Shown here one piece after another: positions 5,029 to 43,922 of a stretch of 64,000 nucleotides of DNA (its first letter is position 1; the number at the start of each line of letters is the position of its first letter). The stretch is from Melampsora larici-populina 98AG31 (taxonomy: Eukaryota > Basidiomycota > Pucciniomycetes > Pucciniales > Melampsoraceae). The position numbers and the translations under genes are program-made. The stretch is taken from NCBI RefSeq assembly GCF_000204055.1, contig NW_006768778.1:588010-652009 (forward strand), written 5' to 3'. The notes beneath the pieces were generated by a model. The model made no database searches. It was not told the origin of the DNA and saw only the letters and a program-made list of their open reading frames with translations.

Positions 5029-5329
5029 CTAACTTAACTAAGGTGCCCTCAGTGCCCCGGGGTAAAGACGCCAACAAAAAAACACAACAAACCCCCGAGG
5101 CACGAGGGGACTTACATGCAATGTCCCTTTTCCTGGTGACAAGGGAAACCACCTTTTGGTGGTAGAAAAGGGTCCACAATTGATTATTTTTCACCCAATC
5201 ATGAAATTTCTTGTATATCAGACATGTTACGCGCCTCCTTCTTGCGCATCTTTTGCCTCCCTCAGAAACACTCTAGCGCGCCAATTGCAAAAGTTTTCTT
5301 TGGGGCCCAAAAAGGGTCTTTTCGAAATT
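5029..5329 (+). repeat. 301-bp terminal inverted repeat, left end of DUF6589/RecQ element C
   Basis: It begins CTAACTTAACTAAGG and ends at ...cttttcgaaatt. It is the inverted partner of 709-1009 and of the interrupted copy 41998-43922. Outside it the three copies share nothing. It is followed directly by the promoter and DUF6589 gene of the left end. Ninety-percent-plus identity over the whole length suggests recent activity or homogenisation. Confidence 0.88.
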
Positions 5330-5738
5330 TGGCATCTTGATTTGCTGCGAGGTTACAGCTGGTCTGCGCGTATGTAAACTTGAAAGCAAATTTGGAATCC
5401 ATCCAAAGCCAGGTAGACCAGCGAGGCTGGCTGGGCAAGAGCTTCCGCTGCCTAGGCAGGGAGAGCGACTCGAAAGGTGAACACTGAAATGGCTTCTCTC
5501 GGTTATATATGTTTGGTCTCGCCTTGTTATTAGCTTAGGGAACTTGCCTGTTGTTCTATCCTCTCCAAGTTTTCCCTGTTCAACAAAGTATTTGCTCCTT
5601 GGCTTCAACTTTTTCCGCTCAATTGTTCCTCTTCTATTTGCTGCGTCTTTCCACGTTCAATATCTCCTCTTATACCATACCCTTTCAACAAACAGCCTGG
5701 TTATCTTTTCGATTTTCACTGTTAAAATAGTATTCGCT
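5330..5738 (+). promoter_or_regulatory. 5' flank of the DUF6589 gene
   Basis: About 410 bp between the left terminal repeat and the chosen start codon. A TATA-like stretch (gttatatatg, near 5500) lies about 240 bp upstream of the start. An upstream in-frame ATG at 5544 would add 65 hydrophobic, low-quality residues and is not favoured. Confidence 0.4.
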
Positions 5739-7107
5739 ATGTGCTCTAGCAATGTGCCTACCAATGTCCTGCAAGCTGGCGAGGAACCCCAACACGCTCC
5801 AGACCTACAAGTGCAACAAGGCCCAAAAGCCCCTGAAAAAACAAAGAATCGTACATTGGAGATCTATGATTACATCTACAAGCTGGGTTCTAATCCCAAA
5901 AAATTCCTGCAGAACTTATTGGATTCTACTAAACCCGAGTGCGTCAAGAGACGCCAATTTTGGGGCACATTGACAGGCTGGGCTTCAACCGAGAAGATCT
6001 TGCTCAGCATCAAGAGACTAATCCTTGACGGTTCCGACCGAACTGATGTAGAACGATGGAACAGCTTCATTTTGAGAGAGGTTTTTGACTTTTCACCACA
6101 TGGTTGTGTCCAGATATCTATACTGACAACCTCATTGTTTTCACAGGCAAAAGACATTGTCAATCGAGAGGAGCTACCACAAGGGGTAGCTCCGGGAGGT
6201 GCTTTCTACAGCGCAAATAAAATTGATGAATCGTTTTTGGTGCCTCAAGCGGAAGAAGATCGCGCAAACCTCATTCGCAATAGCATGCCATTCCTCCACG
6301 CACTGATTTACTCAAAAATTCAAGAGGCTAATGAAGCTCGTGAAAAAAACCGTTCGAAGACCAGCTCAAACGATTTCGGGAAAGAAGAAGCAGAACGACC
6401 AAATGAGGACAATGTACCTGGAGGTGACAACTTTGCAGAGAGTCTTGAGGGAATCTCTCATTCGGTGCAAGTCGAATCGAGAACCTTGGACGCCCAAAAG
6501 CTCCAACAAGTATGTGATCAATTTGCTGTGTAGGGTTGTTCACCTTTTGATGATTTGGACCCCATTCGACAGATACCGGTGGCCGTATTGTCCATGATCG
6601 CTTATGCGTGCAATCAAAGGTTCAATGGGCTTCAGCTTCAGAACTCTCTGTCTTTTGTCGCATGTGGTGTCTCCGATTGTGTTAATGACTATTTACATTT
6701 CCTTGGATTAACTTCTTCACGTCAGACGGCTCTTTCGGCTATGGACACTCTTGGTCTCGCCGCCCAAAAGGCAATTAAAGAATTGAGTTCAAAGCCTTAC
6801 ATCATTAGACCCTTATTGGTTCTTGATAACATTGATATCCAAGCTCGCATCCATGACCCTCGCATTGAACAGACCACGAAGATGTTCCATGGATCGTATG
6901 GATACCTTCATGTCTTGCCAGAACATTTAGTCAAAGACGTCACCCCAGCTGAGGCCAGCGTCAAGAGCTACCTCAAATACATACGCCAGAGCCAAGACCA
7001 GCCATTCGAAATCTCCTCGATGCTCCCAAACGATAACGAAAGCAATCACTGGACACTAGTCCTGAAGTGTCAGCTCGCCACAGCCTTTTTGAACTATCAC
7101 TGTGCCC
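5739..7107 (+). pseudogene. DUF6589-type element protein, N-terminal part (truncated)
   Basis: Start chosen at ATG 5739 (MCSSNVPTNVLQ). Exon 1 runs to 6509 and a 63-nt intron (GTATGT...ACAG, 6510-6572) is removed in phase 0. Exon 2 begins IPVAVLSMIAYACNQR and continues with VACGVSDCVNDYLHFLGLTS, a stretch I recognise from the DUF6589 proteins abundant in basidiomycetes. The reading frame continues to NHWTLVLKCQL and then ends near 7107, where the sequence becomes rearranged. The remaining domain is found at 37742-39370. Function is unknown; its position inside inverted repeats with a helicase suggests a transposition protein. Family assignment is from memory of the pattern, not from a search. 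Confidence 0.75.
6947..7027 (+). repeat. 81-bp perfect direct repeat (partner 37653-37733)
   Basis: From agctgaggccagcg to gatgctccc these 81 bp are identical to 37653-37733, 30.7 kb away. In this copy the block is inside the DUF6589 frame on both sides; in the other copy its left edge is a breakpoint with unrelated sequence. Confidence 0.9.
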
Positions 7108-7137
7108 GTTGAAAGCGCCCTCGACGTCAAGGGCGCA
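7098..7137 (-). repeat. 40-bp segment inverted relative to 37756-37795
   Basis: The reverse complement of 7098-7137 matches 37756-37795 at 37 of 40 positions. It includes a near-perfect palindrome (GCGCCCTCGACGTCAAGGGCGC). It marks an inversion at the break in the left DUF6589 half. Confidence 0.75.
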
Positions 7138-7255
7138 ACTACTGTGACGCTGGTGTTGCGTTTTTGTGTTGTTTATGCTGCAATACTCTCGCATGTTGAG
7201 CAACGCGCAGCGCCGAGACTATCCGAGCAGCGCTTCAGCTGAGATGAGCACCTCA

Positions 7256-7420
7256 TCACCTTTTACTAAACATTGCCTTCGCGGCAGCTGAAACTAGCTG
7301 ATCGTTCAACGATCCCCAGCCACCGAGCTTTTGACCTAACACGTTTAGAACCTCTTGCTGATTAGCTTCAAGACAAGCATAAGCTTCCTCTTTGACCAAT
7401 AGCTTCATCCCTCTCGCCAT
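7256..7420 (-). pseudogene. Small ORF, 54 aa, possible last exon of an unknown gene
   Basis: ATG 7420-7418 to TGA 7256-7258 gives a compact, helix-prone peptide (LLVKEEAYACLEANQQEVLN, then GGWGSLNDQL). The composition looks protein-like rather than random. The region just upstream contains an acceptor-like cag, so this may be a terminal exon cut off by the element breakpoint. No family was recognised. Confidence 0.3.
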
Positions 7421-8005
7421 CTGCTTCCTCCCTAACCTGTATCACTTGCCTTTCACTCAATGCGTGTGAACATAATTTGTATGTATAATTTGTATGTAGA
7501 TAATTACTATCACATCAAAGAGAGTATTTGAAGCAATTGATGAACACCACCGGGCTCAAGACAGGTTTGACACCCGTCTTCTGTAGGCTGGAGCCCTCTC
7601 AAAAGTATGCAGAGTTGGACATGTGACATACTGACGATATGTCAGCTTCCAAGAACCGGCTTCAGCAAGAATCGGAAGCCAGTTATTGATTTGAAATGCT
7701 GTCGTATCGGGATACTTGGTCCCTTGGAAGACATATGTTTGTGAAATATCGGCTGACAAGAAGATAGATGCACGTCATAAAATTGAAAGCACGATCTAAA
7801 GGAAATATGCAAGCGCGTAGCAAAAAGCCTTGATGAATTACAAAATCATCATTGTTATTTGTCTGAGAAAGGTGGCGAATAAATTTAGCTCTGATAAGGC
7901 AGTCTAGATACATAGATTACAGTACGAATATTACATTAAATAGAAAATCACAGGGTAAAATCAATCTCCATAAACATCTGAAACACGCGCATTAATATCT
8001 ACAGA
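7421..8005. other. Intergenic, no gene recognised
   Basis: AT-rich sequence downstream (3') of the minus-strand gene that ends at 8006. Short open frames look accidental. It may hold the 3' UTR of that gene. Confidence 0.4.
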
Positions 8006-11000
8006 TCATGTGTCCGGGGTTTGCCAGTCTAGCGCCTTTTGAAGCAGGTGTTGGATGTTATAGTCTTTAAGTGAAAGCTGGAGTCCTACTTTCTCAGCCT
8101 TGGCAAGGCCGACCCAATACCGCTGATCAATAAGTGATTTGGGGAATCCTTTAGGTGGATAACTTGCTTCTTTCTGCGGGCTTTCCATTTCTCGATGATC
8201 ACCACGATCTAATACTTTATCCGCAGTGGTACGGTCGCGTGCAGATTTTTGGAGCAGCTTGTATAGGCTATCAAGCTCTCCCAGGAATGCAACAAAGTCC
8301 TTTGATCTCCAGGGTAGCGCGACTCGATACCGTTCATTGAAGGAATCAAATTCATCTTCAGAGTGTACTGACACTTCGGAGATGATGTTGTAAAACCGTT
8401 TCTCTTTTGGGAAATACTTATTCATTGCTTTCAAACGGAATTCACATACCTATGTGATTTGTGTGTCAGATGGCTTCTTTGGTTTATTCAAATTTAAAGC
8501 AAAAGGTACTCACTCGCTTTTGTGCCCGCTTCCTGCAACTTTTATCCTGAATTTCTTTGGCTTTCTTCTGTCTATTCTGATTCTGATTCCTTGAATCACC
8601 TTCGGATGGCGGAGAGTTTTCTTCATCCAAAAGTGCTTTTTCATCGTTAACTTGTGTGACGTACTTTCGTTTTTTGGTCTCAAACCATCGTTCTAAGATG
8701 AGATGTAGATTCTCGGGGGTAACTTTTCGGCTGTTGATAGTATACTTGTCTGCGCCACCTCTGTGATAGCACTTCTCCCATTCTTGCAGGATAAGCGCAG
8801 CAACAGCCTCATTCCAAGTTGTTTTCATCGAGCTCCTCCAGTCCAATGCACATCGGGAAAAGCCAGCCAAAGCTAGAGCTCCTTCGCATGTCCTGAGGTC
8901 AGGGATCGAATACTTGAGGTTTGGTATGACTGTTGGTATCTGAGAGGCAAAGACGATTGGTTCCATGTGTGAGATGGCTTCTTCGGCTGTGTCTGCTTCA
9001 ACCGCAAGGATAAGGTTGGGCTTTGCATTGGGATGTGTTTCTATGTATTTAGATACAGCATTGTCAACACATTTGTCAATGTGTAAGCGCTTATCCAGTT
9101 TTCGCTGCTCCCATGCCTGACATTCTGCGTTGGTGGGTGGGTCGGAAAAAGAGCGGTTGGTGTTTTGTCCTTGGCCCTTGCGCTGAATACCAAGCAACAA
9201 TTTGATGTAATCGTGAATTGATGTGGATAAGGCGTCATATTGAGAGGGTTGCTCCGGTTGAGTACGTGCATACTTCTCCATACGAGAGTTTTGATGCCGA
9301 TGTTTTTTTTCCTTAAACTTCCGTGCCGCTCGTCGATTTTGGTACTTGCGCTGCTCGGAAAGATCGTGTTCACCATCACTTGAATCGTCAGGTTCATCGG
9401 AATCGTCTGCTTCTGAATGGTCCAATCCTTCCGAGTCAGAAGCTTGATTTTCAGGTTCGTGACGAGGTGCAGGTGAAGGTCTGGAAGGCCCTTCAATGGG
9501 GAGATGACGACCCAAGGAATGCAATGTTACCGAAGAGCTTGGAATCTGATTTGGTTGAGGTGATTGCCTAGAAGGCCCTGCAATGGGGAGATGGTTTCTT
9601 GATGAATGTGAAGTCGCTGAAGGTTTTGATGTCTGAGAAGTCGCCGAAGGTCTTAACGTCTGATAAAGCTGGTCTCGAGATACGTGGTGATGAAGAATAT
9701 TGCCTGGTGGCGCTCTAGAAGACCCTACACTCGGTGAATGTCGTCCAGAGGAACGAGGAGTCGCTGAAGGTATTGAAGACGGTATAAATTGATCAATTTG
9801 AGACACATGTTGGTGCAGAGGCGGAACACCCAGTGAAACTCTAGAGGTCCCAGCCGCGGGTGAATGGCGTCCTGAGGAACGCGAAGTCGACAAAGGTCTT
9901 GAAGACTGAACCGCTTGATCATTTTGACGTACAGATACACCTAGTGATAATCTAGAGGGCCCTGCCACAGGCGAATGGCGTCCTGAGGAACGCGAAGTCG
10001 TTGTTGGAGGTCTCAACGACTGAACCGGTTGATCAGCTCCACTCAGCGATGCTCTGGAGGGCCCTACAACGGGTGAATGACGTCCTGAGGATCGCGAAGT
10101 CGCCAAAGGTCTTGACAACTGAACCGGCTGGGCAGTTTGACACACATTTTGATCATCTTCACGTCTTTGGAGACGGATTTTTGACTGCTGTGAGGAGCTG
10201 GTATCTATTTCGGGTGGATGTGGTATGCGCTGAGGGTCTGGTGATTCGGGGCGAAAGAGAGGAAGATCTCGTGATTCAGGACGGGAGGGTTCAGCGTGAT
10301 AAACCGGCTCAGTTTCGCGACTTTTGCGCCCTTCGGCTTTGTTACCATGTTCATATTCATTGATGTCAATGCCCTTGGGATCTTGGAGGTTCAATTGACG
10401 TCCAGTCTGAGAGCGAAACTGGTAGTTCGTGCACGAGGTTCTTAGTGGATGGGAAGCTTCTGGTCTCTGAGAATCTTTGCGTGTCAAACAAAAAAGGGTT
10501 TTGGTTCAAATTTCAGCAGGGTTTTCAGTGATCTCAGTTTCAATCATTATATTAGGACATACCGCTATTGGTGGGGTCTATGAACCGCACTTGTGGTGGT
10601 GGGGAGCATATACGTTGTTGAGAAGCTTGTGGAGACCTTGAGTGTTTTCGAATGTCTCGATCTCTCAAAGAGTAATCATCTTCAGATGCAAGCCACCAAC
10701 GTTTGCGGCTCGAATAATGCCTACCAAGTCTTGGCTGTGTAGAATCTTGATTTGATAAGATCAAATTGGAGTTTTTTACAAAAGTAATGGATAGATTAAT
10801 GCTATGTACCCGCTGTTCGTGACAAGAAAATGTGCAAACCTTCATTTCGGTGTGCCCCCAGCGAACGTGTAGAATCAAGTGTTTGACTTAAACTAGAACA
10901 ATCAGAAGCCGGATTGGAACTTGTCGTTTTGGTCGGGTGTACATGCTGGACCGGTTTGGAAAGGAATTGGTTGATGTCTTCTCGCTCTGGTTGCTTACCA

Positions 11001-12420
11001 GCCCGGACGGAAATAATGTGATCAGTGTGTCTTTGCTCCGGCTGTTTGCCACGCCGTACAGAATTCCTGTTATCAGTATTGAATACACGCTCTGGATGGA
11101 TGGTCGGAAATTTGATACGAGTGTCTTGTAAGTTTCAGAAGAGTTTCTTGTGAAAAGTGAAGGAGGCTACGGATCAAACCTTGATTAATTGTGTCAAGAT
11201 TGACACCTTTCGCAACAGGCTCAGTTGAGCAACCATCGTTTGGAATAAGATCTCTGATTTGATTTTCACTCAGGCCGCCATGGAAGGGATCAGCGTTCAA
11301 TTTTGGGGCTGAACCATCCGGACCTGTATGAGGTATATCACAGTTGTCACCCTGAATTCCTTGTTTGTATTCTTTATTTACTTCATATTTTTCTGTTATT
11401 TTGTATTCTTCTTGTGTTTTGTATTGTTCGTCCATCTTCTCATATTCTTCATTCATCTCGTATTCTTCACTCATAGGGTTAGGCGTTTCAATTACATCCA
11501 TGCCTTGATTCGACACGCCTTTGTTTACCGGTTCGTCTTCTTCGTCAATTGCATCTAAAGGACATATACATAAACTGTGAAATCATTCGCAGGTGAGTTT
11601 TTGGTGAGAAGAATTGTAGAACTGACCAAGTCGGGTCCCAGTAATATGAGGCGCGGGGATGGCGGATAGGGGAGAGGGACTAGTAGGCGTCAGATCTTTC
11701 GGACTCTGCTTGAATGCGGATCAAGTGTCTGGTCAGGTTGAGACCAACATCAGCTGAGACGTGATAACTGACATGAGCTGTAAGCTGGAGGGTGGCTTCA
11801 TTGGAAAAACTCCTCTGGTGGCGCCTGCAGCTGGCTGAATGCAGTGTACATGAAGAAAGTATGTCAGAAGTCAACCACAACGAGGATTGGTCCAGCGGTT
11901 TCACATACCAAGATCCGAATAAGGATATGGCCAAGATTGTGGCTTTTCCTTAACCACTGGTCGCAGAGATGATTTTTGTTTACGATTCAAATACTCCTGA
12001 GCAGCTCTGTTTGGGGGCTGAGGGGCTTGAGACAGTCCATCGAAGTGGTGACTGTATCGACGGCGAGAGGGTGTAATATCTTCGGCTTTGTCTGATGAAT
12101 TACATGGAGTAGTAACAGAAGCAGCATGTCATGTGAGTACATTCTGAGTATATTCTTGCGTTGCAGCAGCAATGAAGACTTACTATCATCCGCTTGCTCT
12201 GGCTCTGCATCCATTGGAATCGGTTGTTGGTTGTCTTCATCATCAGCTTCTATTTGAGAGAAGGGCGGTGAGAAGAGGTCTGTGTGGGAAGTCTTGTTTT
12301 TTGGTTGTCTTACCTTCGACAGACATGTCCACATCAGAAAGTTGTTGTGACATGATCGAGCCTTCATGGGGATCATACAAAGAATCAAGTTCCCCAAGAT
12401 CGGGCAGGCTTCCAGCCATT
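8006..12420 (-). CDS. Multi-exon low-complexity protein of a rust-expanded family (unknown function)
   Basis: Start ATG near 12420 (MAGSLPDLGELDSL). At least nine exons are readable with GT..AG introns, ending at 8006. The N-terminal exons are acidic and Pro/Gln-rich, followed by a tandem EEY-rich segment (about 11370-11500) and five or more 38-aa repeats with the core TSRSSGRHSPVAGPSR (about 9720-10130). A basic segment (KFKEKKHRHQNSR) leads into the conserved C-terminal domain: TCEGALALAGFSR, TWNEAVAALIL, then an intron after KRAQKR (donor near 8508), the exon VCEFRLKAMNKYFPKEK, and ALPWRSKDFVAFLGELD. The gene at 35199-36395 has the same domain and the same intron position. A nuclear role is guessed from the basic tract only. 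Individual splice sites in the 5' half are uncertain. Confidence 0.6.
9720..10130 (-). repeat. Coding tandem repeat, about 114-bp period
   Basis: The nucleotide core cgtcctgaggaacgcgaagtcg recurs at about 9737, 9867, 9977 and 10079 with spacings of roughly 100-130 bp. It encodes the Ser/Arg/His-rich 38-residue repeat on the minus strand. Variation in unit length is typical of a disordered repeat region. Confidence 0.7.
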
Positions 12421-12449
12421 GTTAATGAGAGCAAACAGGGTTGTAGGAA

Positions 12450-13560
12450 AGTTCCGCTTGGAAGAGGTGATTCCGGAAACAATATTTGAAGAGTTGATGT
12501 CGAGTTTTGAAGTTGAAATGAAAAGGGAACACGATATTGAGCTTGGTGACATAAGAGGCCGAGCCACCATGGACTTCTTGAGGACAAAGGTTTGTTTGTT
12601 TGTTGTGATTTACAACCAATACATAAAACATAGGCTGTATGTAGATTTATACATATCATCACTCCCTGACTGATGTTTGAGGTATCACTCGACTTCATCA
12701 AAGACTTGAGAAAGATCCCAATTTGATCAGACTCGAGAAAGATAAACGCTTGAGACAGACACAGTTCTTTCAGTTTGCCTAATTTCAATTTTTGTCTCTT
12801 TCTGCTTCTGGGAATGATTTGTACAAATATATTTTGTTCTATTAATTCAAAGAAATGATTAGTACTAATGTATTTTGTTATATTAATTCAGAGTTTGTTT
12901 CTTCAAGCATTTTCGAGCGCTAATGCTCTATCTTTGGATTTTACCATTTTGATGTTGATCTTCCTCAAAGTTACCTCAAAGTTAACTCAAAGTCAAGATC
13001 ATTGATCATTTGTTTGACAGAAGCCAACTCATCCTCGATCTATCTATCTTTATTGCGGATCTAAGATGTTTGATTGAACTTAAGACACATTCTGGGGACG
13101 TGAAAAAGAGCAAAGAAGAACCATTTGACTTATTTCCAGATAAGCGAAAAGATTTGTGGACCAAGATAAGGAATATATACACACTCGAATGGAAAGGTAA
13201 GAGAAAACAAACTGGAAAATCACTATATACACAAGACTATATACCCAAAACATATGATTCACTCGATGAGTTTTGATTGAAGGTTCACAAAATCTCTTGA
13301 AACACGATAAGGAATATCGATGTACAGACCCAAATGGAAAGTTAAGAGAAAATAATCTGGAAAATCACTATATACACAAAACTATATACTCAAAACATAT
13401 GATTTACTCAATGAGTTTTGATTGAAATCTCTTGAAACACAATTTGAATGTTCACATTGGCTTAGACAAGAGCAAAAGCAGCTCCTGCACAGATTTGAGG
13501 TGAACATTGATCTTGTTCACGACACTGCTTGTGAATTGACGGCAATCGCATGTTGAAGCT
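12450..13560. other. Gene-less spacer between two minus-strand genes
   Basis: No convincing exon was found. It contains the tandem duplication listed at 13163-13440. The upstream part should hold the promoter of the 8-12.4 kb gene. Confidence 0.4.
13163..13440. repeat. Tandem duplication, two about 140-bp units
   Basis: The unit containing ctggaaaatcactatatacac and aaaacatatgatt.actc.atgagttttgattga occurs twice (13163-13305 and 13306-13440) with about 90% identity. It is non-coding. Confidence 0.75.
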
Positions 13561-13611
13561 GCGACCACATATGAAGTTAGGCATTTTTCTCAGGTGAGGT
13601 TTGTACAATGC

Positions 13612-15638: not shown

Positions 15639-15783
15639 GAAGTTGAAAACAAGAACGAATTATAATCAAGACTTATCCAAAAGATCGGTGAAAAAGTGTA
15701 GTAGAAATTCAAATGAACAAGTAGCGGTGGACAAGTTTCTATGGAAGAAGAAATTTGCTAGCAGACTGACACATTCAAGATAG

Positions 15784-16182: not shown

Positions 16183-16374
16183 TTAGACTTGGTGGTATTG
16201 TAGAGAGTTGTTTGTTTGGAGTTGAATAGCGAGCGTGGTTTCAGTCGTTTCACTCGCAATGATGGTGGATAGGATCTGCAATGAGTGAATCTGGCCGCTC
16301 GCGTTAGATTGTATCAGAGGAAAGATAAGAGTAATGACTAAATAAAGGTGAATCAAAATTTCAAAACGAAACAT
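16183..16374 (-). CDS. Candidate small secreted protein (63 aa)
   Basis: ATG 16374-16372 opens a 63-aa frame. Residues 1-24 form a strongly hydrophobic stretch (HLYLVITLIFPLIQ) followed by SNASG, a plausible signal-peptidase site. The mature part is about 38 aa, Thr/Gln/Leu-rich and without Cys. Rust genomes contain many small secreted proteins, but this one rests only on the signal-like N-terminus and could be a chance frame or a first exon. No family was recognised. Confidence 0.3.
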   Translation of the reverse strand: MFRFEILIHLYLVITLIFPLIQSNASGQIHSLQILSTIIASETTETTLAIQLQTNNSLQYHQV

Positions 16375-16857: not shown

Positions 16858-19800
16858 TTATGGGAAGGTGGTGAAGATGATATTAATAACCATGTTTTTC
16901 AAGCTGACAACGGATACTGTGGGATCTGTTATACCAAAGCTCCCAGCAGGGTTTTTCTTAACAGCAACGTGACCCATCAGGTTTTGACTGTCAACCACAA
17001 CAGCGGTCTCTACCCTGTCATAAAGAACTGTTGCGTGAAGCTTGGGATGATTGTGGTAAAAGTTATGGGGGAAGTCAGTTGAGCTTAAGCAAGAGTACGG
17101 TGATATTAATAAAAAGGTTGTTGGAATTTGCGAGGCACGGAATTGTGACACAATAGAACCAAATCTACGCTGGCCCTGATGCCTGAACTCCACCATACTA
17201 TTACCTTGATGAGCAGAATGAATGCTGAAGATTTTTCCGGAAAGTCGAAGCCGTTTTATGGTTTGTACTGAATTGAGAAGGGTCGGATTTTCAAGTGTAT
17301 TGGGCTCAGTAGAATCAGAAAAGATACCGTACTGACCCTTGACATTGTGATTGAGGCAAGTCAACCAGCTTTGATATGTATCAATGTCAAGGGACGTCAA
17401 GACAGACCACTTGGGTTCATTCTTCCCAGTCAGACGTTCAAGTACTTGGGTTTTGATCTGTTTGTCTGCCTTACTAAGGAAATTTGGCGCGCTTTTTGTC
17501 ATGACTTTTAAAAGGCCTCGCCGAATGAAAGAGGTGCACATTGTTTTATCTAAGTCCTCTGTGAAAGGAGAAAAAAGAATCAGCAATCCTTTTTTATGAA
17601 GGTCTCTATCAAGGTCAATTTTAGGCTCACCCGGGTGTCGATTTTTGGGTATTTTGATCATTATGCCGTTCATTTGTTCGCCCGACCAACTGGCGGTGTA
17701 GGTTGGAGGACCGAAAAGTCTGGCAATTTGTGGAAGATGCTGAGCGATGTGCAGGTTTGGCTTTACACTCACATTTGGCCAGTGTTTCTGTAGGTTTTCG
17801 CGGTAGAGTAGCAATTTTGCTCCTAGTTGATCACCATCATCACAACTGAAGGTACGGCATAGCGTATAATTTGTGATTTCTGCAGCTTGAAGAATACTTG
17901 TACAAATTGTTTGACGATTGGCTTCTGTAGAATGATACATATCTGGAATTGTCGAAAGAACCATGTAAACGGTGTAAAGAGAGTGCCATTCGGATGCTTT
18001 GAGGCTTCCAGCACTTGCAGCGCCCAACATTCGGGGAGGTTTAGTCAACCAGGTGGGAGTGATCACGCTTACAATTGATTCTTGCAGGCGGATAAGGTCT
18101 GAAATTGTCAGATTCAATGGATTCTTGTCGGAACTTTTTTTGTTGCTAGTTAAGCCAACTCTCTTCTTGCGGGGGGGCTTTGAAGAAGCGCGTACTGTAG
18201 AGTCGGAATCAGGTGAATCAGGCAAGGTTGTGTTCAGTTTTCGCTGTCGGTTTATCTTCTTTTTTACATAGTTTGTGCTCTTAAGTGAGCTCGATGCTAG
18301 GCGTCGCGAACGTCGGAGTGGCTGTGGATCCGATTTTCGAGATGTGATACTACTAGAGGAGTGAGGATCAGAGTCGCTGATGGGGGGAATGAACCTGCTT
18401 CTTTTTTTACCACTACAAAATTATACTTTGTCAGTTTGATGTCTTGAAGGAGAAAGTTTAATTGATGCTTACACTGCCACTACACACTGTCCATCAGAAG
18501 CATTCGGATCACTCAGAGCATGATATGAAGCTGATTGTACATTATAAGAATTGTCTGACTGAGATTCTTTTTCAACTAAAGAACTTGATCTATGAGGTGA
18601 TACCGCAGAGGTTTCCAGAACAGAGGTTGATGAACTCGGCACCACCTCTTCGAGGAAGGGGGTATCATCCTTTGGAGTTTGTTGAATAACCCTTGTTGAA
18701 TCCAACGCTTGTTTAGCCTTGAGTTTTTTCCCCGTAACAGCAAGCCCAAGAAAGGAAGTGGCATGATCACACAACATTCCCAGAAGAATGTTGTGCATAA
18801 CATCAATTGTAGTAAAATTAATCGCTTGCCAATAGGGCAGCTCAGAGAGTATGGACCATCAAACACCGTAATTGTCGAATATTGAATTTTGATCGGCAAG
18901 TGATTTGGCGTTCCGCCATTCATTGGCGTGTTGCTGATGATCAAGCCGTTGGGGCCACTTTTGAGAATCTAATTCCGACCTTTGGTTCCTGTCGAGTCCG
19001 CAGTGTGCACAGAACAGTGTTGCTGAGCACCCTGCTAAGCCATTTTCCTCTTCCAACTTGGGGAAGTTGAATGATGTTCACAGTGTTACTGCGTGAATCC
19101 TTCTTCCACGGGGATGGCTGGAAGTACACGTGAAGAAAATTCCCTTCCAAAAGTCTTGGAATTCATCTACTAGAGGCTTCAGAAGACGATTGATTTGTTC
19201 GGTTTGAGGTTCCTGCGGACCGGGGATGGTTCCAAAAAGAAAAATATATTCTTCATGGTACCGGACGTCAGGAGGTAAGTTGAGGCAGATCAAGAGGAGG
19301 TTTCCGCTGGAAAAATGTCGCTTTGCTCCTTGGCCATGGGGATTGAACCAGTCGGCGTAGAGAGCAAAGACTAGATTACCGCTCTTGAGGGTATAGGACT
19401 GTCCATCACGCTGAAAGGTCTTCCAGATTTCTCCGTCCCAGATGTCGGTCATAAGCAAAGGATTGTTAGACCTGGGTGACAAAGAGGAATCTAGCATGTC
19501 TTCAAAGCCGGGTAGGGACATCATCCTTGCCAGCCATTTTCGTAATGACTGATAGTGAAAAACTCGGTTTGGAACTGATGTGGAGCCTGAAGTTTTATAC
19601 AGATCCTTGTTACATTTGCTCCGGAAGACCTCCTTTAAGTCTTTAATCTTTCTTTCGGGGTCCTTCAAGAAACGCATATTATCACATTGAAGCTTGATTC
19701 CAGTGTCGTCATTGAGACCTGCTTCCCCATGAAGTGCAAAACACAGAGGACAGCATATTTCGGTTGTAAGGCTGACATCGAGATTGAGTAAGCTGTGTAG

Positions 19801-20509
19801 TCTTGGTACAGTTGTTGGAATGTCGTCCCAGTAAGCACGTCCGCTGATATTGTTCTCAATAGCAGTCTGCTTAGCCTGTAATTTGCATAAATGAAGCGCA
19901 GATCTACTTTCACTATCGCTGGCGCCGCCTGTGATACTCGCTTTGGCAATCTGTAGGATCGCAATTAGGCTGGAAGGACAAAGTAGATAGACTTTCTGTG
20001 TTTGAAAAGCCTCGGTAGCAAACTGAATCAAAGATGATGTCTCGGTATCGGCTGAGGCTTCTTTTCCCCTTTGAGGATTTTCGTGAGCCAAATCACAAGC
20101 GTCTATAGATATGCTATGTGAGCATCCCTCAGTGGTGTGTGAGGGGGATTGAAGTCTCTGACGTGGTATATTGCCAGTGCTCAAGGATCGTCGTCTCTGA
20201 AGACACATGTTGAATCAGCTTTGATATGCAGTGTTCAATGCCGGAAAACCTGGAGCTTACATTTCCCAGGCCTGTGTTAACTCCACCAAAAACGCCAAAG
20301 CCGCCACTATGGCCCAGGCCAGTATTACTTTGACGAGCTCGCCGGACTTTTGTGTCATGCAATCGTCCGTTGCGGTGGTCTCTCGCCCTTCCTGGGTACG
20401 TGGAGCCCTCGTATACAAATTTCTCGTGAGAGCATTTGAATTCAATGCACGTGCAAACCCGTAGTGAACCCAAGATGTACGATGATTCCATCAAAGATGA
20501 GGTGTGCAA
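16858..20509 (-). pseudogene. CACTA (Tnp2-type) transposase, broken
   Basis: The N-terminal exon (about 20509-20276) has a Cys-rich start (CTCIEFKCSHEKF) typical of basidiomycete Tnp2 proteins. After an intron the frame from about 20208 carries CCPLCFALHG, the segment LMTDIWDGEIW, FALYADWFNPHGQG, PPDVRYHEEYIFLFGTIPGP and HPRGRRIHA, then TIDVMHNILLGMLCDHA. After another intron (about 18475-18415) it ends with IAQHLPQIARLFGPP and TASWSGEQMNG. All of these follow the known order of CACTA/Tnp2 transposases. The frame is interrupted by TGA at 19078-19080 and at 18859-18861; the latter sits where context (NYGV-R-WSILSEL) implies CGA. Terminal CACTA repeats were not found. The element is judged inactive. 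Confidence 0.85.
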
Positions 20510-34380: not shown

Positions 34381-34439
34381 CTTCTGGTTAATGAAAATCA
34401 AATACTTTTGGTAGCTATGCCTTGATAGAAACAAGCTTG

Positions 34440-35198
34440 AGATTGGTAGTTAGTAGCACAAGGGGTGGAATAATTTTTATTTTGGATTGTGAACTGCGAA
34501 AATGTGTTAACCTCTCATCCCAGAGAGCATTCACTCCGAATGACTATCCGAGTACCCCCGGCAGCCTGCCCCGCGTCCACCATATACCATACAAATGAGT
34601 ACTGGCGTCTGATTGACTTCCAGTTCACGGATGCATGAAAAACGTTCACTGATTTTTGCCAAACCAGAATCGATCCCCTTAATCATCTCAAAGGCTCCGC
34701 CTGCAAAAAACGAGGCCAAAGATGGCACAGCGGCGACCCGAACAGCTGGTTGCTGGCTTCTGTCGTGTTATTCAAGATGACCACTGAAGTGCTCGTCTCA
34801 CCCGACTGCACTAATCATCGTATTGTAAGCCTGGCGCTGACAAGGGAATCTAAATTTCATTGCAACTGATGCTACTCAAAATGCAATTGATATCTCATAT
34901 CTTGACTTCTAGTATCCCCACTCGATCTGAAAGATTACAAACGCAATCCCGTCAATGAGTAGAGGTGCACCAATTGTGTAAACCTCTTCTGGATAGACCC
35001 CTTGTCACGGACTTGACCTCTTTTTATGGCCTTTACACACAACAAAGGGATTTTCTGAGGGATTTTCTCGAAGTTGAACGTACTTATATCATAGACTCCT
35101 CTTGTAACGTTTTGCTATCATGCGCTGACATATCTTCTTTCCTCAATCGATTCTTTTCTGCTATTGATCCACAATAACCTACCCCACCATTCTATACT
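34440..35198. promoter_or_regulatory. Divergent intergenic region
   Basis: About 760 bp between the long minus-strand gene and the plus-strand gene at 35199. It must contain both promoters. No specific core elements or binding sites were recognised. Confidence 0.4.
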
Positions 35199-36395
35199 AT
35201 GGATGGTGAGTTTCTTTATTGACCATGTCTGATAGAATTATAACTACTAATTGTTTGCTTAATTCAAGACCGAGACCAGCCACCAACATCAATATTTTGG
35301 AAGGAAGATCAACCAGCACGCTCGACCAAATCTAGAAATAAGGCTGTAGCTAATTGTTTACCTGATCGAAATTCAGCATTCTACCAAGCCGCCACCGACT
35401 TTCTGAAATTTCTACTTGGTCGCACTGTTTTGGAGACACCTTACCCCTCTGAACCCTCCCCCAGCGAATTTTCTCAGTTCTCCAGACTGCCACATCTGAC
35501 TTTTAACAAGATCATGTCCAACCTTTCGGCCTTTTCCCTCCTTGTGGAGCTCAATAATCCACCTACACCATCTTCGAAAATTTCGCGTCGCCAAAAGAAT
35601 TGTTGGGAGACTCACAGACAACAATTCTTGCACGACTTGACCATCTTTGGTATTCCACGTGCGACACTTGCCTGGAATCTTTCCGAAAAGGTGCCCTGGA
35701 ACCAGGCTGTTCTAGCCTTTGCTGTCAAGCACTTTGATCAAGCTCACCTCAAAGGAGCCTTCTCAATTTATCCTATCAACCGCGAGGATGACGGTGGCCT
35801 CACAACTCTTGGAATTTATGAGCGATGGTTACGAGGACACCGTGAAGCAATAAAACGGATGGAACGCTCGAACATCCAAATGCAAGAGAAGATCAGGAAA
35901 AGAAGAACTACAGTAAGTGTTATTAATTGTGATCCACCTTTGTGCTTGAATTCTGACCTAATGTTTTGTAAGCTTCTGGGGTACCGTCGAGACACGATTG
36001 AAACATGCTTAGATATCCCACCCCTGACCTTGCTACCTGACGGAAGCTGCATCTCGGACACCGAAGATGCAACACCAAAACAATTGCGTGCTGTTGGGGT
36101 TCACTGGAGGAGCAATGAGTACTCTAACTTCCTGCACCTTGTTGACAGTGTCTCTTACAACCATCAGAAAGACACCAAAGGAGCGCGGTGGGCTAATCTC
36201 CGATTGGATTCAAGGCGAAAGCCCGCATCACGTGTTGATTACTCACGCCGTGTAACCAAAAACCTACCCGAAAACTTCTACTCCCCTGTTTTCCTTGCAA
36301 AGCTTTCTCCAACTGATTGTGCCGTTCTTACCAGCACGCCAGCCTCATCTATTCTCTCAGAATATACTGCTATACTTCAATCACACATTGGCTAG
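35199..36395 (+). CDS. Rust-expanded family protein, intact paralogue of the 8-12 kb gene
   Basis: Three exons, all phases consistent: 35199-35205 (ATGGATG), intron 35206-35268, exon 35269-35912, intron 35913-35972, exon 35973-36395, giving 357 aa (MDDRDQPPTSIFWKED...). The domain has FYQAATDFLKFLLG, LTIFGIPRATLAWNLSE, PWNQAVLAFAVKHF, IYERWLRGHREAIKRM, a basic end (KIRKRRTT) exactly at the second intron, then VHWRSNEYSNFLHLVDSV and LPENFYSPVFLAKLSPTDCA. The 8-12 kb gene shares the A.L.W....WN.AV.A pattern, the basic pre-intron tract and the WRS..(Y/F)..FL motif. The first coding exon is only 7 nt. No stop or shift was seen. Function unknown. Confidence 0.75.
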
Positions 36396-36652
36396 AATAA
36401 CTTTAGACGTTGTTTTTATAGGCCATACAGTTGCTTATTACCCTTTTCCTCCATGAACTTGAAACAATTGTATATAAGAGTTTTAAATTTTTTCAATCTG
36501 AATAAGATTTACTCAATGCGGATCTACTTAGACGTTTCTATCACACTTCTATTGTATTCAGTCTCAATTTCTCAATTAAAACTTATTTTCATTCAGATTT
36601 TTACATCAAGTAACTAAAACAGTACAAAAAAATAGATCGCTTACAGCCATGC
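36396..36652. other. 3' flank before assembly gap
   Basis: AT-rich sequence with no recognised gene, ending at the gap. Confidence 0.4.
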
Positions 36653-36752
36653 NNNNNNNNNNNNNNNNNNNNNNNNNNNNNNNNNNNNNNNNNNNNNNNN
36701 NNNNNNNNNNNNNNNNNNNNNNNNNNNNNNNNNNNNNNNNNNNNNNNNNNNN
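36653..36752. other. Assembly gap (100 N)
   Basis: Exactly 100 N, the conventional size for a gap of unknown length. Order and distance of the two sides are therefore not guaranteed by the sequence. Confidence 0.99.
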
Positions 36753-36854
36753 TAAGATCATGATCATGAACAAGTGAGATGGGTTGATTGATTATGGACT
36801 GAAGAGTCTTTGCCGTGTCTCTGGATTCACGCTTCATTAGTACAAGAAGTTCAA

Positions 36855-37370
36855 AGATCAAGATCAGGTGGAGCTACATCAGTTTCATCAACTTTGGCTG
36901 AAGGAGGTACAACACAACCAGGGACAGCACAACAAGGAAAAGTAGAAGAAGAATTACATTGACTTCAAGAAAGAAATCGGACTTTAGAACAAACTCATCT
37001 CAAAGCTATTCAATATGTTAAAGGAACTGAAAAGATGTTAAGAAGGATGAAAGATGAATTAACAAAATATAAAGAAGAGACTGAGAATTTAGAAACCGAA
37101 TGTAGTGAACTTCAAAAATCTGGAAGCTCTTCAGGAGGTGGTGGAAGTGAATTGAAGAATCAATTGATTGAATTGACTCATCAACTTGAATCTTTAAGAG
37201 TTTCTTCTAAGGAATCGAATTTAGAAAAAGATGAGTTTATTACAAATTGAATATGAAAGAGATATGAAATCGAATGAAGAAAGGTTTAAAGAACGAATTG
37301 AAGAAGGTTATGTTGAATTAAATCAATTGAAAGATGAAAATCGAGGACTTAAAAATGAATTGATTGGATT
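36855..37370 (+). pseudogene. Coiled-coil gene fragment, broken
   Basis: From about 36845 the frame gives Ser/Thr/Gln-rich sequence, then heptad-rich coiled coil (ERNRTLEQTHLKAIQYVKG, MLRRMKDELTKYKEETENLE, a Ser/Gly linker, LIELTHQLESLRV). It has TGA at 36960-36962 where CGA fits (ELH-R-LQERNR). A 1-nt frameshift near 37245 leads into the next frame (IEYERDMKSNEERFKE, GYVELNQLKDENRGLK). It stops abruptly near 37370. The AT-rich codon use matches the host genes of the right part of the window rather than the neighbouring elements. It looks like a captured or duplicated piece of a host coiled-coil gene; which gene cannot be said. Confidence 0.5.
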
Positions 37371-37652
37371 GGGATGTGTCTCACGGATAGCACATAGTGC
37401 AGTCTTGTTTCGGGCTCTTGTTACGCTCAGGTTGTAAGTACGGGCACCGCACTGGCCGAAGGCTGGGGCATCTGCTATTGGCATGAGAGGCGCGCACCTT
37501 TCCACCCGCAAGAAGTGGGAGGGAATGCAGTAGGAGGGTTGGAGGATTCAATTAAACAGATTGAGTGGTTCAATCGGAGAATTTAGAATTACAAGGGAAG
37601 TGTGTTGAGTGAATGGCCTGAAGAATGAATGAGCATGCACTGATCATACGTT
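37371..37652. other. Unclassified junction sequence
   Basis: Sequence between the coiled-coil fragment and the breakpoint of the DUF6589 element. No gene recognised. Confidence 0.35.
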
Positions 37653-39370
37653 AGCTGAGGCCAGCGTCAAGAGCTACCTCAAATACATACGCCAGAGCCA
37701 AGACCAGCCATTCGAAATCTCCTCGATGCTCCCGCAACCTCTTGCAACACCCCACTGCGCCCTCGACGTCGACGGCGCTTTCAACGGGAACAGTGTATGT
37801 AATCAAGAAGGACTCTGCAGGATACGACTGCTCCAAAAAGGCTCTGCAAACGCATCCTCCCCCAATCGACCCAATCGAGATGTATACACCCGATATCTCA
37901 ATGCTGAAAATGATGAGCGCCTCAGATAATTCAGCTTCTGGGGTCGCTGAGATGCTTGAGCAGTGTAACAAGCAGACCGGTCATGATTCCACGTCGTTTA
38001 GTCACTCTCTCCAAGTCATCGAGGGCGACATGGGTACTTGTCTGAATTTCGAATCGCTGATCCGCCAACGCTTTCCGGCAGGCCACAACAAAGAGGCTCT
38101 TGATAATGTGTTGAACCTTCCTGGCCTGTCACACACACTATGGAATGTGGCCAGTAAGGTATTGAGTCACCACTGGGGTGATCCGAATGATTCATCAGAT
38201 ACTGGCTTGCATCGCACTGCTGCTGCTCTCGGAATGAAGACCGATAAGCAGCCATCCCAGCAAGATTTTAACTCGTTAATGCAAGTCATTCACAAAGGTC
38301 ACACCGCAACAATGGTGTTCCTCTTGAAGTATGTACGGTCTTTCTTATCTTTGACACAAAGATCTCTGACTTTGCTGTACTACTACAGACAAACTCTTGA
38401 GTCTGAGTCCGAAGACGTGCAATTTGATACGCCCGGCGTATCTCAAGCGATGATTGACAGGTGTTATAATAGGTATTTCACTCGCGAAGCTTTGCAAAAA
38501 GCTTCGAAAGCTGGTGATTGGACCATCTACAACATGCAGCTACGTTTGCGTGACTTTGCTAGCATCGTCGAGTGTGATCAAGCTATGAGGGCAGGGGACA
38601 TCGGGCGAGTGATGTTGATGTGGAAGAAGTGGGCGGTGATGGCTCAGGGGGTGTCCGGCCTTTCTCATTACGCTATCCACCTCCCACGGTTCATCTTGAT
38701 TCTGGAACAGTACTTACCTAAGAATTTCGCCAAAGCCATCAAACACTCTCTTCTCATTCCTACCTCTGGCCGAGTTGGACACTGGGTAGCCAAAGATTTC
38801 TATCTTGAGATACAAAACTATTGGCTCAAGTACTTTTTCAACAACTCGGTACGCGCTCATTAAGTATTTGCCTCAAACTTTCCGATAGCTGACTCATTTT
38901 ATGAATCCGACCAAAGGGCCAAGGTACCAAGATTGACCGGCTGATGTCTCGGTTCTCGATCATTATTCCTTTGGTGAGTCAGTTTGATGACACCATCATT
39001 GTAATTCTATTCACGTTTGCTGATCCTGTCAATGTATCATAAGCTACGCAAACAAATCCAACAAATGAAAGAGCGCTCTGGCCTGAAGGAGATATACCAG
39101 TCAAATCCACATAACATCACACCTGCTTCGCTACAGTCATTCTTAACCATGGCTCAGAATCACATGTGCGATGTAGAACTATCTAACAACAACAGACCTA
39201 CAGATGACAATGATGAGGTGGATGACATCGAATTGCTTGGCATAGGTAAACTCAAAAAGATACTCAAAGAGGAGGCCAGGAAAAAGTTACCTTCTCGATT
39301 CATTTGGGGGTCTATGAAAGAAAGGAACACCGGGATCGATGAGTTAGTTGGATCGGATGATGAGGACTAG
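37653..39370 (+). pseudogene. DUF6589-type element protein, C-terminal part
   Basis: The block begins with the 81-bp repeat (37653-37733) and then a rearranged stretch in a different frame. From about 37742 the frame reads PPPIDPIEMYTPDISMLKMM, SASDNSASGVAEML, VIEGDMGTCLNFESLIRQR, TLWNVASKVLSHHWG, GLSHYAIHLPRFILIL and SGRVGHWVAKDFYLE. Introns 38849-38916 and 38974-39043 are removed in phase 0, giving FFNNS|GQGTKIDRLM and SIIIPL|LRKQIQQM, and the frame ends at TAG 39368-39370. This is the characteristic C-terminal half of DUF6589 proteins. The N-terminal half is missing here but present at 5739-7107. The 3' end overlaps the convergent helicase reading frame. Confidence 0.8.
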
Positions 39371-41785
39371 GTGGAAGCATCCCCCAAACAGTACTTACTA
39401 CACTTAAAAGCTCTTCTTGACGCTGTCTCAGCTTTTCTTCCTTCGCTCTTTGTTTGTCAATGGCTTTTTGTAATCGAATTCGTTTTCGTTCGGCGATTCC
39501 AGCCTTTTTGATATCACTTTCAATTTGTTTAAGTCTCATTTGCTCTTGATGTTCCTCTTCGATAAGATTGGAATCCAAGATCGCTTGTTCTTGCCTGATA
39601 CGCTCATCTTCCAGATCTTGTTGATACTTGTGATACACAGGCGACTTGATCCACGAATGAATACTATTGCGCACTAAAACGAAATGACCGGGAAGAGTCT
39701 CACCCCCGAGAATCTCGCGTAAAAATGTTCCGTTTTTGACAGCCTCATAATTTTTGACCACTTGCCAGGCCTCTTCGCGATCAAACAACGCTGACAGATG
39801 CATATGTGATCCATTCGGATACGTGGCCTGAAAAAGACCCTCGAATTCGCCCACCAGGATGACAGCCAGGTCAATCATGGCAAGACTGAGCCGGATCGGG
39901 TCGTTCCGCTTGCACACCAGTGGTATGTCGCCGGAGAACTTGCGCTTGGTAATCTTCTTGGGCATCGAGAACAGACTGACATCCTCAGGCTGTTCTGGTG
40001 AAGAGGACATGAGAGTTCCGAAGTCTGAGTGTTTGGTGGTAGGAAGTAAGCGAAGAATACGCGCGCAACCATGAGGATCGCATTGTGAACATTTACAAGG
40101 TCGCATGTTCATAGCGGTTTGGCGTGAGATCTCGTTGAGATAGCCAGGATCCGAAAGATCAACTGGTATGTAACCTTTCCTGTCATCTCGGAACAAAGAC
40201 ACAGTTCAGCCTCCCAGTGCAAGGTTCTTTCAAATGTAAGTGACTCACAGATTATCCACTGCATAGGCGACTCAAAGACAACAAGGTGTGACTCGAAACG
40301 CATGCATTCGATCTTCGTTGTCCATGTAGGCACTTGGTCTGAATTCGCGCGGTGAGTTCTTTCCCGGACTCATGTTGGGCTGGACCAAATGAATTACCAG
40401 GCCATCGCTTCCATCACGGCCGGCACGCCCGGCCATCTGATTTGACTCCGCTGGGTCCATTGCCCCCATAATTATCACAACCTTCACACGGGTCCAATTC
40501 TGACCCAGTCCAAGAGCAGATGTACATGACAGGATTGGAAACGTAGCTTGGCCGTAATCTTGGACCCGAGTTAACTGGTCCATTTCGCCAGTGACTGAGT
40601 GATACCGCCGTATAAATGAACTATTGCCATTACACGCGTCAACTGGGTTTCCCCGTGCTTTACAGACCACGTCAATGACCACCCCGGTCGCATTACGAGT
40701 TCCCAAATATATCAAGGTCGGAGTTGAGTCTTCATCCGAGAGAACCGAAGCTGGAGCGAACAGCGAGGCCACATCCTCAGCTGACTTTAAAGGCCGAGTG
40801 AGATAGATCCTGATGAAACGATTCTCGGGTCGCGTCAACTCGCCTTGGATGACGGTCATGTTCTTCGGGATGATCTTCAGGCTTGACTGTATAGCACTGA
40901 TTGCAGATGGTCGACAGGTCGCAGACATGAGCAGGAGAGGGACCCCATCGGTGGCCATCAGCTGCTGACCGAGATTGCCGTAAGAAGGCCTAAACTGGCC
41001 AACATCTTCAGGTACAACATGTTTCGAAAGCCCTTGCATTTTGCCGGTAGCCTGAAGTCCCCAGAGATAGATGCAGTGGGCTTCATCGACTACTTTCAAG
41101 ACCAGATGTCGCTGAAAGTCTTTACTATGATACAGCTTTTGAAATGCCTCGCTATTTAGAAAGATCTCTGGACTCTGTTTGCAAACGTACAGAAGTCAGT
41201 CTCTGACAAATCCCAAAAGCCATTTCATTCCTCACTCACCAAGTAGATAAATGAATAAGCGTGTGCTTTCAATTTCGCCAATTCAGCCGGGCCAAACGTT
41301 GTCTTTGTGAGATTGATTGCTGTAATCCCGATTAGACTCTTCTCCAACACCTGGAAAACCTGTAAGCTAGTCTGATGAGCTATACCAAGAGTTATGGAAC
41401 CACTTACTTGATTGTTCCCAAGTGCATCTAGAGGGTTCAAAACCAAGACTACCGGTTTCTTGATCTTTGCAAACATATGGAAAAACAACTCAGGCACACG
41501 GCTCTTTCCATAGCCTGTGCCTGCTAAAAGAAACGTGTCGTCCCCGTTGATGAGACTGACTGTAGTGTCGATTTGAATTTTCTTCGGTTCTTGATTGCCG
41601 TACTTTTCTTTGAAGCGGATGCAGACCAATTCTCTTTGTTCCAATGTGCTGGATTCCAGCAGCTTTTTCGTAAGTAGCGGAGTTTCAATCTTCAAAGTCG
41701 GGATTGATAAGGCACTCTCAACGACGTCTGAGAGCTTGACGTCCTTTCCTGTCTGGCTTCGAGTGCGAATTTTAGACTGAGACAT
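39312..41785 (-). pseudogene. RecQ-like helicase of the DUF6589 element, one nonsense codon
   Basis: Start ATG 41785. Exon 1 (to about 41241) has GTGYGKSR (Walker A) and LNPLDALGNNQ. After an intron, SPEIFLNSEAFQKLYH leads to VVDEAHCIYLWG (DEAH box, with the W of RecQ proteins), LLMSATCRP (motif III), LIYLGTRNATGVV, FPILSCTSALGLGQNW and NQMAGRAGRDGSDG (motif VI). A TGA at 40272-40274 stands where CCL-R-VAYAVDNL is expected (CGA). The last exon starts near 40188 with KGYIPVDLSDPGYLNE, has a Cys cluster (CKCSQCDPHGC), and ends in a Glu/Arg/Lys-rich coiled coil. Helicase activity on the element's DNA during mobilisation is an inference. A telomere-linked role, known for some fungal RecQ genes, is an alternative. 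Confidence 0.8.
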
Positions 41786-41997
41786 CTTTCACACAATGAC
41801 TTGAAAAAGCTATTGGGTCACGATTGATAAATTTTCTTCAAAAAGAGCTTATAATTGGTTGGAGGCAAAGTCAAAAGGTCTTGACGTTTGTCAATAGAAC
41901 TCAAGATTGACAGATTCGACAGGCCCTTTGTCTCACATTGGTGTTTCAAATTACCCCGTTACACATCGCCTACTATCAGCCGCAGTCGCACCTTGAG
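41786..41997 (-). promoter_or_regulatory. 5' flank of the RecQ-like gene (copy B)
   Basis: Nearly identical to 497-708. It separates the helicase start from the right terminal repeat and is the presumed promoter. Confidence 0.4.
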
Positions 41998-43922
41998 AAT
42001 TTCGAAAAGACCCTTTTTGGGCCCCAAAGAAAACTTTTGCAATTGGCGCGCTAGAGTGTTTCTGAGGGAGGCAAAAGATGCGCAAGAAGGAGGCGCGTAA
42101 CATGTCTGATATACAAGAAATTTCATGATTGGGTGAAAAATAATCAATTGTGGACCCTTTTCTACCACCAAAAGGTGGTTTCCCTTGTCACCAGGAAAAG
42201 GGACATTGCATGTAAGTCCCCTCGTGCCTCGGGGGTTTGTTGTGTTTTTTTGTTGGCGTTGTGGTGATCTATTTATGATATTAAGCAAAAAAATTAATCA
42301 TCTTTACTTTACCAGTTTATTAGCAAACTTCAATATAGCAGAGAATTCGAGATTCAGGTTTTCAGATCAATTGAAGCTCTTAGAGGCTTATGTATACTTA
42401 TCAGCTCATTATTATGTCATCTTATTTCAAAATTATTATTAAGATCAACATAGTTTACTTACAAAGTTATTACAAAAAGACAGAAAAAGAAAAGATAAGA
42501 AAAATTCGAAAATATAGGTGTAAAAGTTGGAAAATGGTTTTTAGCTTATTTATAATTAAGTTATGGGTTTTATAAGGTTATAATATGAAAGAACAACAGT
42601 TTATTATACAGGAACAATTTTAATATTCAAGGTTGATAAGGGGAAACAGAGGTTATTAGCAGAAAGGTACTTTTTCGAAGTTGGTAAACAAGGGTTAGGC
42701 GTGTAGTTTACATATGTAATGGTGGTAGTGATGGAATTTAAGGTTGCCAAGAGGATTTTCCGGGATTTTTAAGGTTATAGAAGATGATGTCATATTACAT
42801 GAGCAAGGAAAAGGGAGTAGCAGCTGTGAAAAGTGAAGAAAATAGGTGAAAATCGTCGAAAATGGAGGTTTTCAGCTGATTACATATGTCAAATGACGTC
42901 AGAATAAGTTGGTAGATGGCTCATTCAACGCAGAAGAGTGGATTACATAATGTACAACCTTTGAATCATTAGTAACGGAGGTGTATGTAAAAAGTTATAA
43001 GGGAAATAAGAAATTGGTGTGAATCTCGAATTTACAGTCACAAGACACATGTAACACCAAAAACCTTAACTTCACAACTCAATATCTTACTCATCACTCA
43101 TCAGAAGTAGGTCTTATAGGTGTCAGAAATGATCAGTAACACGTGGGCTACAAGATGCACTTTAGTAATCAAAAATTGGAGCACATCGGAAAAAATTCGT
43201 AATCTCAAAAGTTGGGTTTCAGCTAGTTTACAAGGAAAAAATCACCTGTATTCATCTTAAGAAGTGCTGCACATTACATCATTGCGTCATTGATCACTTT
43301 TGGCTGTGAAAATTACATCATACATTAGTAACAAGATCATTACATTGCGTCATTACATGGTTTTTAGGGTTATTTAGGCGGATTTGATTGGTTTTTGAGG
43401 CTGTTGACTGTTGTAAAGATTGTTACATGTGGATATAAGTACTCCTTGATGATTTTGGGATTGTAGCGCCCTTTTCTGCATCTTATACCTTTGTTGTAGT
43501 GTTATAAATCATCATTTATTTACTATATTTGTACTAAGATCACTTAAATCCGCCCCTTCAAAAGCAAGGAGAAATTTATTTACGTGTGTTAAAGACTACA
43601 AGTCTAATTGGGAATAATACTTACAACAGTATTGCTAGTAATAAACATAGTGTGTGACTTTTTTTGCGCTTAAAATCTGGGAATAATACTTAACAACAGT
43701 ATTGCTTTATTTCTCTGGTGCCTTTTATCCTTTTCTCTGTTATCACAAAGTGGTCAGCAAGTGCCCTTGTGCTGGTTTCTTTGAAGAAGGCAGTCTTTAG
43801 GCAACTTCTACTATATTACACGTAGTACATTATCCCTTCTTAGGTGTTGTAAAGCTCTTGTTGAGCTTTAAATACTACAGCGTCTTTACCCCGGGGCACT
43901 GAGGGGACCTTAGTTAAGTTAG
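41998..43922 (-). repeat. 301-bp right terminal repeat of element B, interrupted by a solo LTR
   Basis: The repeat is split: 41998-42259 and 43884-43922 add to exactly 301 bp, equal to 709-1009 and 5029-5329. The interruption is 42260-43879 plus a 4-bp target duplication. Confidence 0.88.
42260..43879. mobile_element. Solo LTR, 1,620 bp, with 4-bp target duplication GCGT
   Basis: The insert begins TGTGGTGATC and ends AAATACTACA (TG...CA termini) and is flanked by GCGT at 42256-42259 and 43880-43883. The uninterrupted homologue (967-970) has a single GCGT. No coding frames are present; the right part has TATA-rich and T-rich stretches typical of an LTR. Size, termini and target duplication fit a solo LTR left by recombination. 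A non-autonomous TIR element is less likely because the ends match only poorly when inverted. Confidence 0.8.

Follow-up and report, generated by a model that had tools for sequence, protein, structure and literature searches.

A rust fungus transposon with convergent DUF6589 and RecQ-like helicase genes, most likely a member of AcademH

A stretch of 64,000 nucleotides from the 98.3-Mb genome of Melampsora larici-populina 98AG31 (C14:588010-652009, referred to here as the window) carries a mobile element that is bounded by roughly 300-bp terminal inverted repeats and contains two convergent genes, one for a DUF6589 protein and one for a RecQ-like helicase. We conclude that it is a cut-and-paste transposon, most likely of the AcademH group of the Academ superfamily. 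Its boundaries, its two genes, its 9-bp target duplications and a family of copies (named by contig, such as C9 or C13) are established below. The fold and catalytic residues of the DUF6589 protein are predicted and suggest that this protein is probably the DDE (Asp, Asp, Glu) transposase of the element. Elements of the AcademH kind have already been published; the identity of DUF6589 is the new part of the result.

Results

Organization of the window copy

The element comprises the following features (ORF, open reading frame):

5029-5329, + strand: left terminal inverted repeat, tip CTAACTTAACTAAGG
5481-7097, + strand: first part of the DUF6589 gene, made up of ORFs 5481-6533 and 6534-7112; motif LVLDNIDIQAR, with its proposed first catalytic Asp
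37796-38863, + strand: second part of the DUF6589 gene, with the PF20231 match; putative second Asp in EGDMGT, putative Glu in RLRDFASIVE
39005-39370, + strand: DUF6589 gene, last ORF, its end overlapping the helicase ORF by 59 bp
39312-41788, - strand: RecQ-like helicase gene, in the three ORFs that follow
41225-41788, - strand: helicase ORF 1, with presumed motif I GTGYGKS
40272-41195, - strand: helicase ORF 2, with DEAH and the helicase C domain
39312-40205, - strand: helicase ORF 3, with a Cys cluster
41998-42259, - strand: inner part of the right terminal inverted repeat, matching left-repeat positions 40-301 without change
43884-43922, - strand: tip and outer part of the right terminal inverted repeat, 1 mismatch in 39
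43923-43931: 9-bp target duplication GGTCGTGAC, right side; reverse complement at 1010-1018

The same 301-bp sequence lies at three ends in the window, in the orientations described in an earlier note on this DNA. Over 301 bp, the left end and the end at 1009-709 share 99.3% identity; the third end matches the left repeat without change across the 262 bp of its inner part (42259-41998) and with one mismatch in its outer 39 bp (43922-43884). ORF positions agree with the further claims that the left end leads into the DUF6589 gene, that the split right end leads into the helicase gene on the opposite strand, and that the converging genes overlap at 39312-39370, where the final ORFs share 59 bp from stop to stop. 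Both ends of the proposed span (5029-43922) stood, but not its continuous interior, most of which (7098-37795) is a nested element of the CACTA type; the proposed length of about 8 kb has to be replaced by a net length of 6,569 bp (about 6.6 kb), calculated from the coordinates. The window copy is thus a damaged, interrupted transposon, with the CACTA-type element sitting inside its DUF6589 gene.

The DUF6589 domain (PF20231, E 1.9e-64) was recognized in ORF 37655-38863, and the segment 5290-7075 is 72% identical, at the DNA level, to the copy on C13. The overlap of the two genes, measured throughout on stop-to-stop ORFs and not on spliced gene models, is 56 bp in the C13 copy, 22 bp in the C6 and C35 copies and 59 bp in the C7 copy. 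In C33 it amounts to 93 bp, with the helicase-side ORF ending differently; the script found no corresponding ORF overlap in C9 and C29.

The window helicase carries the sequences GTGYGKS, DEAHC...WG, FRPSYGNL and GRAGRDG, of which we take the first to be motif I and FRPSYGNL to be a RecQ-like motif. An exon-sized piece of it matched the NCBIfam model recQ_fam with an E-value of 3.9e-12 and 45.7 bits. Since this score falls far under the curated cut-off of 219.8, the protein is best described as RecQ-like and either divergent or incomplete. Among solved structures, RecQ helicases matched the helicase piece of the C13 copy, RECQL5 being the best (E 6.2e-06).

A second copy and an inferred inversion

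The additional end in the window belongs to a second copy of the element:

709-1009, - strand: right end of the second copy, 99.3% identical to 5029-5329
1-708, - strand: helicase-side interior of the second copy, similar to the window helicase end
1010-5028: flanking DNA, inferred to be inverted; the 9-bp duplication is regained if the segment is flipped

The second copy is 99.5% identical to the window helicase end across 970 bp, and 3,450 N lie beside it, directly upstream of the window. The 9 bp that follow 43922 read GGTCGTGAC and recur, exactly reverse-complemented, directly after 1009. As assembled, the sequences flanking 5029 and 43922 have 0 bp in common; with 1010-5028 inverted the agreement is an exact 9 bp. 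The most straightforward interpretation is that these approximately 4 kb were inverted by recombination between the opposed ends at 709-1009 and 5029-5329, although an assembly error could also account for the pattern. Once the inversion is undone, the element at 5029-43922 gains its 9-bp target duplication.

A family of copies with 9-bp target duplications

A genome search located the 15-base tip at 10 sites, including 3 within the window, as compared to 2 sites for a control in which the pattern was read backwards. The 301-bp end gave 23 matches, some partial and 4 within the window (all 23 candidates scored). The search for this repeat and for intact copies with target duplications, as proposed in the earlier note, yielded ten two-ended copies in this genome besides that of the window: C9, C13, two on C6, C35, C7, C33, C34 and C122, found through their ends, and C29, found through its genes. 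All but one of their 20 tips (19/20) read CTAACTTAACTA(A/G)G, the left tip of the C34 copy being CTGACTTGACTAAG. An exact 9-bp target duplication flanks eight of the ten. When left and right flanks were mismatched (n=90 pairs), the longest agreement was 3 bp; chance is therefore rejected as the explanation.

Every copy longer than 6 kb (8/8) holds DUF6589 and a convergent RecQ-like helicase within its ends. Seven such copies were found through ends alone (C9, C13, both on C6, C35, C7 and C33). All seven hold both genes, upholding the claim that the repeat bounds an element whose only recognisable genes are these two, and 9-bp duplications lie outside the ends in six. The C6 copy at 1394992 and the C35 copy are 99.3% identical across 7.4 kb but occupy separate sites, each with its own duplication, a sign of recent transposition. 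The C122 copy is a short form of 2.6 kb that retains a helicase remnant.

Two side observations concern individual copies. The two-ended C34 copy (L042 4020-5073) is 1.05 kb long, lacks both genes, has a 9-bp duplication and has the appearance of a non-autonomous derivative. To the left of the C9 copy, the flanking DNA (C9:929902-930010, L009) falls within a repeat of about 108 bp that is present in at least 38 other places (among the best 40 of 105 candidates).

Pairing of DUF6589 and helicase genes across the genome

The genome search with DUF6589 gave at least 104 matches (102 of 248 candidates scored), which merged to at least 94 loci, and that with a helicase fragment gave at least 150 matches (150 of 181 scored), which merged to at least 145 loci. 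The locus counts that follow are all among the matches listed. A convergent helicase was found no more than 6 kb away at 81 of 94 DUF6589 loci; the other 13 comprise one with a same-strand helicase, none with a divergent one and 12 without a partner. Put differently, the helicase lies on the opposite strand at 81 of the 82 loci that have one within 6 kb. Helicase loci without a DUF6589 partner numbered 61 of 145, which is an upper bound. Pairing is thus general, and ends have been shown for one branch: enclosure by CTAACTT-type ends was seen at 9 of 94 DUF6589 loci. The claim that the repeat encloses both genes holds for the eight copies longer than 6 kb and, genome-wide, extends as far as these nine loci.

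That figure is what could be cited in favour of regarding DUF6589 and the helicase as host genes, with the repeat coming from an unrelated insertion nearby. Such a view has next to no chance of being correct, given that ends enclose both genes in all seven copies found through their ends and that 9-bp duplications lie outside six of them. For copies with ends it was ruled out altogether, because both genes are enclosed in each of the eight copies longer than 6 kb.

One of four regions fetched by gene content, C29, has CTAACTT-type ends. Around three distant gene pairs (L047, L048 and L049), a scan of the approximately 9 kb fetched for inverted repeats with 9-10 bp duplications revealed nothing convincing; these pairs may be decayed, larger than the region fetched or differently built. 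At real loci, the inverted-repeat scan returned a few poor matches, with 4 mismatches in 14 end bases, and also picked up palindromes that lie within the inverted repeats.

DUF6589 as a putative DDE transposase

The DUF6589 protein is predicted to adopt an RNase H-like fold, into which a helical segment is inserted ahead of the proposed catalytic Glu. The residues proposed for catalysis are D315, D477 and E643 (P0041 numbering), a conserved D, D, E set. A first structure model, built from 10 sequences, was poor (predicted local distance difference test score, pLDDT, 48.5) and was left unused. The DDE-like predicted fold and the conserved residues lend support to the suggestion in the earlier note that DUF6589 is the transposase or a transposition partner. 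Here and below, published elements are described as in the available excerpts of the papers cited. By analogy, the GAAH-LWN motif of DUF6589 may be equivalent in place to the C/DxxH motif found in five transposase superfamilies (PMC9587614).

Sequence searches with DUF6589 against solved structures gave nothing meaningful, and a Foldseek search against viral models gave nothing below E 0.001. Among the matches listed (in one case the best 120 of 220), relatives that bear a species name come from rust fungi only and have been entered in the databases as hypothetical, uncharacterized or DUF6589 proteins; unnamed relatives were also found. Pfam lists DUF6589 (PF20231) as a family of unknown function, and no description of the DUF6589 name or of this element was found in the literature searched. 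A Repbase entry for the element may well exist.

Several results weigh against a DDE transposase acting in an element so bounded. D318, D556, D652, D718 and E722 are as conserved as the three residues proposed; the catalytic Glu is therefore a choice made by position in the model. A Foldseek search with the DUF6589 model gave no match below E 0.001, the best being ISCth4 (E 0.013), presumably a member of the IS256 family. Two of the ten two-ended copies, C7 and C122, show no target duplication. No recognisable ends were present in the approximately 9 kb fetched around the gene pairs on C24, C67 and C28 (three of the four regions taken by gene content). Finally, an empty-site search for four copies returned their own flanks only, or these plus one-sided repeats.

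Relationship to known transposons

hAT and P elements are not known to carry a helicase and produce 8-bp duplications. In its predicted architecture, an RNase H-like core with a helical segment inserted ahead of the last putative catalytic position, DUF6589 resembles the hAT (Hermes) and Drosophila P transposases. Neither of these was among the results of the DUF6589 sequence search of solved structures, and hAT membership was rejected on the length of the duplication, 9 bp and not 8 bp.

Long inverted repeats and duplications of about 9 bp are typical of Mutator-like elements (MULEs). The approximately 300-bp repeats and 9-bp duplications seen here, and the presence of ISCth4 among the fold matches, would suit a member of this group. 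Against it, a Pfam scan of 10 gene pieces from the window and L037 revealed no MULE transposase family at E 0.01, including PF10551, the MULE transposase domain (PMC8290104). The relatives among the matches listed carry PF20231 or, once, nothing in the precomputed Pfam column. We consider a MULE highly improbable.

Kolobok target duplications are TTAA; the 9-bp duplications of the present element are varied and without TTAA. An assignment to KolobokH, the Kolobok group whose DNA transposons encode a RecQ helicase, would explain the fungal host, the helicase and a DDD/E transposase, but in KolobokH the helicase gene is downstream (PMC9587614), and here it is convergent on the other strand. We give this assignment very little credence.

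The AcademH lineage is said to have been defined by Kojima in 2020. Its target duplications are 9 or 10 bp and those of AcademX 3 or 4 bp, a difference that has been linked to helicase and nuclease (PMC10045372). AcademH elements are present at low copy number in Basidiomycota, Ascomycota and Mucoromycota (PMC10799480). Fungal Academ copies bear DEAD and recQ_fam domains, for which reason they are often annotated as host genes (PMC6416283), and putative non-autonomous Academ elements have been described in Marasmius oreades (PMC8290104). A paper that mentions both Academ and Pucciniales names Academ in its background (PMC12210899). The element studied here resembles AcademH in its helicase gene (RecQ-like in all eight copies longer than 6 kb), in its 9-bp duplication (exact in eight of the ten further copies; in the window copy, with 1010-5028 inverted), in its fungal host and in what appears, from the predicted fold and the conserved D, D, E, to be a DDE-type transposase. 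It differs in the many gene pairs of this genome, as opposed to the low copy number of AcademH (PMC10799480). The element is thus probably placed in AcademH on its helicase, 9-bp duplication and fungal host, with the transposase set beside those of Academ by description rather than by sequence.

It is also conceivable, if unlikely, that DUF6589 represents a DDE superfamily separate from Academ, the helicase and the 9-bp duplication being shared by convergence. The status of DUF6589 in Pfam, the absence of its name from the literature searched and the spread of the structural neighbours of its model over several superfamilies would all fit. Moreover, helicases appear to have been acquired more than once, because Kolobok elements, too, include some with a RecQ helicase (PMC9587614). 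On the other side, AcademH has been published as a fungal group that unites a helicase with duplications of 9-10 bp. We see just an outside chance that DUF6589 founds its own DDE superfamily in which the transposase is obligately paired with a RecQ helicase encoded by the element itself. The helicase would then open the ends or repair the donor site, tasks that host RecQ helicases perform for other transposons.

Proposed mechanism of transposition

For an AcademH element of this build, transposition might proceed as follows. The DUF6589 protein would bind the inverted repeats and cut at the CTAAC tips; the element would then be joined to target DNA with a 9-bp stagger, and fill-in by repair would generate the duplication. 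The RecQ helicase might open the ends, or help process and repair donor or target DNA, so that the element would bring along a counterpart of a host repair helicase. Should DUF6589 prove to be a DDE transposase, at least 94 loci in this genome could be reclassified as transposon genes, and Academ-type elements would acquire a structure-based anchor. The question also arises as to why a cut-and-paste transposon brings its own RecQ helicase.

Other insertions and neighbouring genes

The insertions that interrupt the window copy, and a gap within one of them, are as follows:

7098-37795: nested CACTA-type element, 30,698 bp, outside the transposon proper; CACTG...CAGTG termini, 3-bp duplication TAT
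36653-36752: gap of 100 N within the nested element
42260-43879: insertion of 1,620 bp that splits the right inverted repeat, flanked by GCGT

The nested element contains a tnp2 transposase ORF (PF02992, E 4.5e-15) at 19081-20214. At its right end, an 81-bp stretch (37653-37733) is identical to the DUF6589 sequence at 6947-7027, just left of the insertion site, as if target DNA had been captured or duplicated. No ORF of 150 amino acids or more was found in the insertion at 42260-43879. Further along the window lie two apparent host genes, one for a U1 small nuclear ribonucleoprotein (snRNP) 70 kDa-like protein (50892-51818; PF12220, RRM_1) and one for a UbiA prenyltransferase (61899-63185; PF01040).

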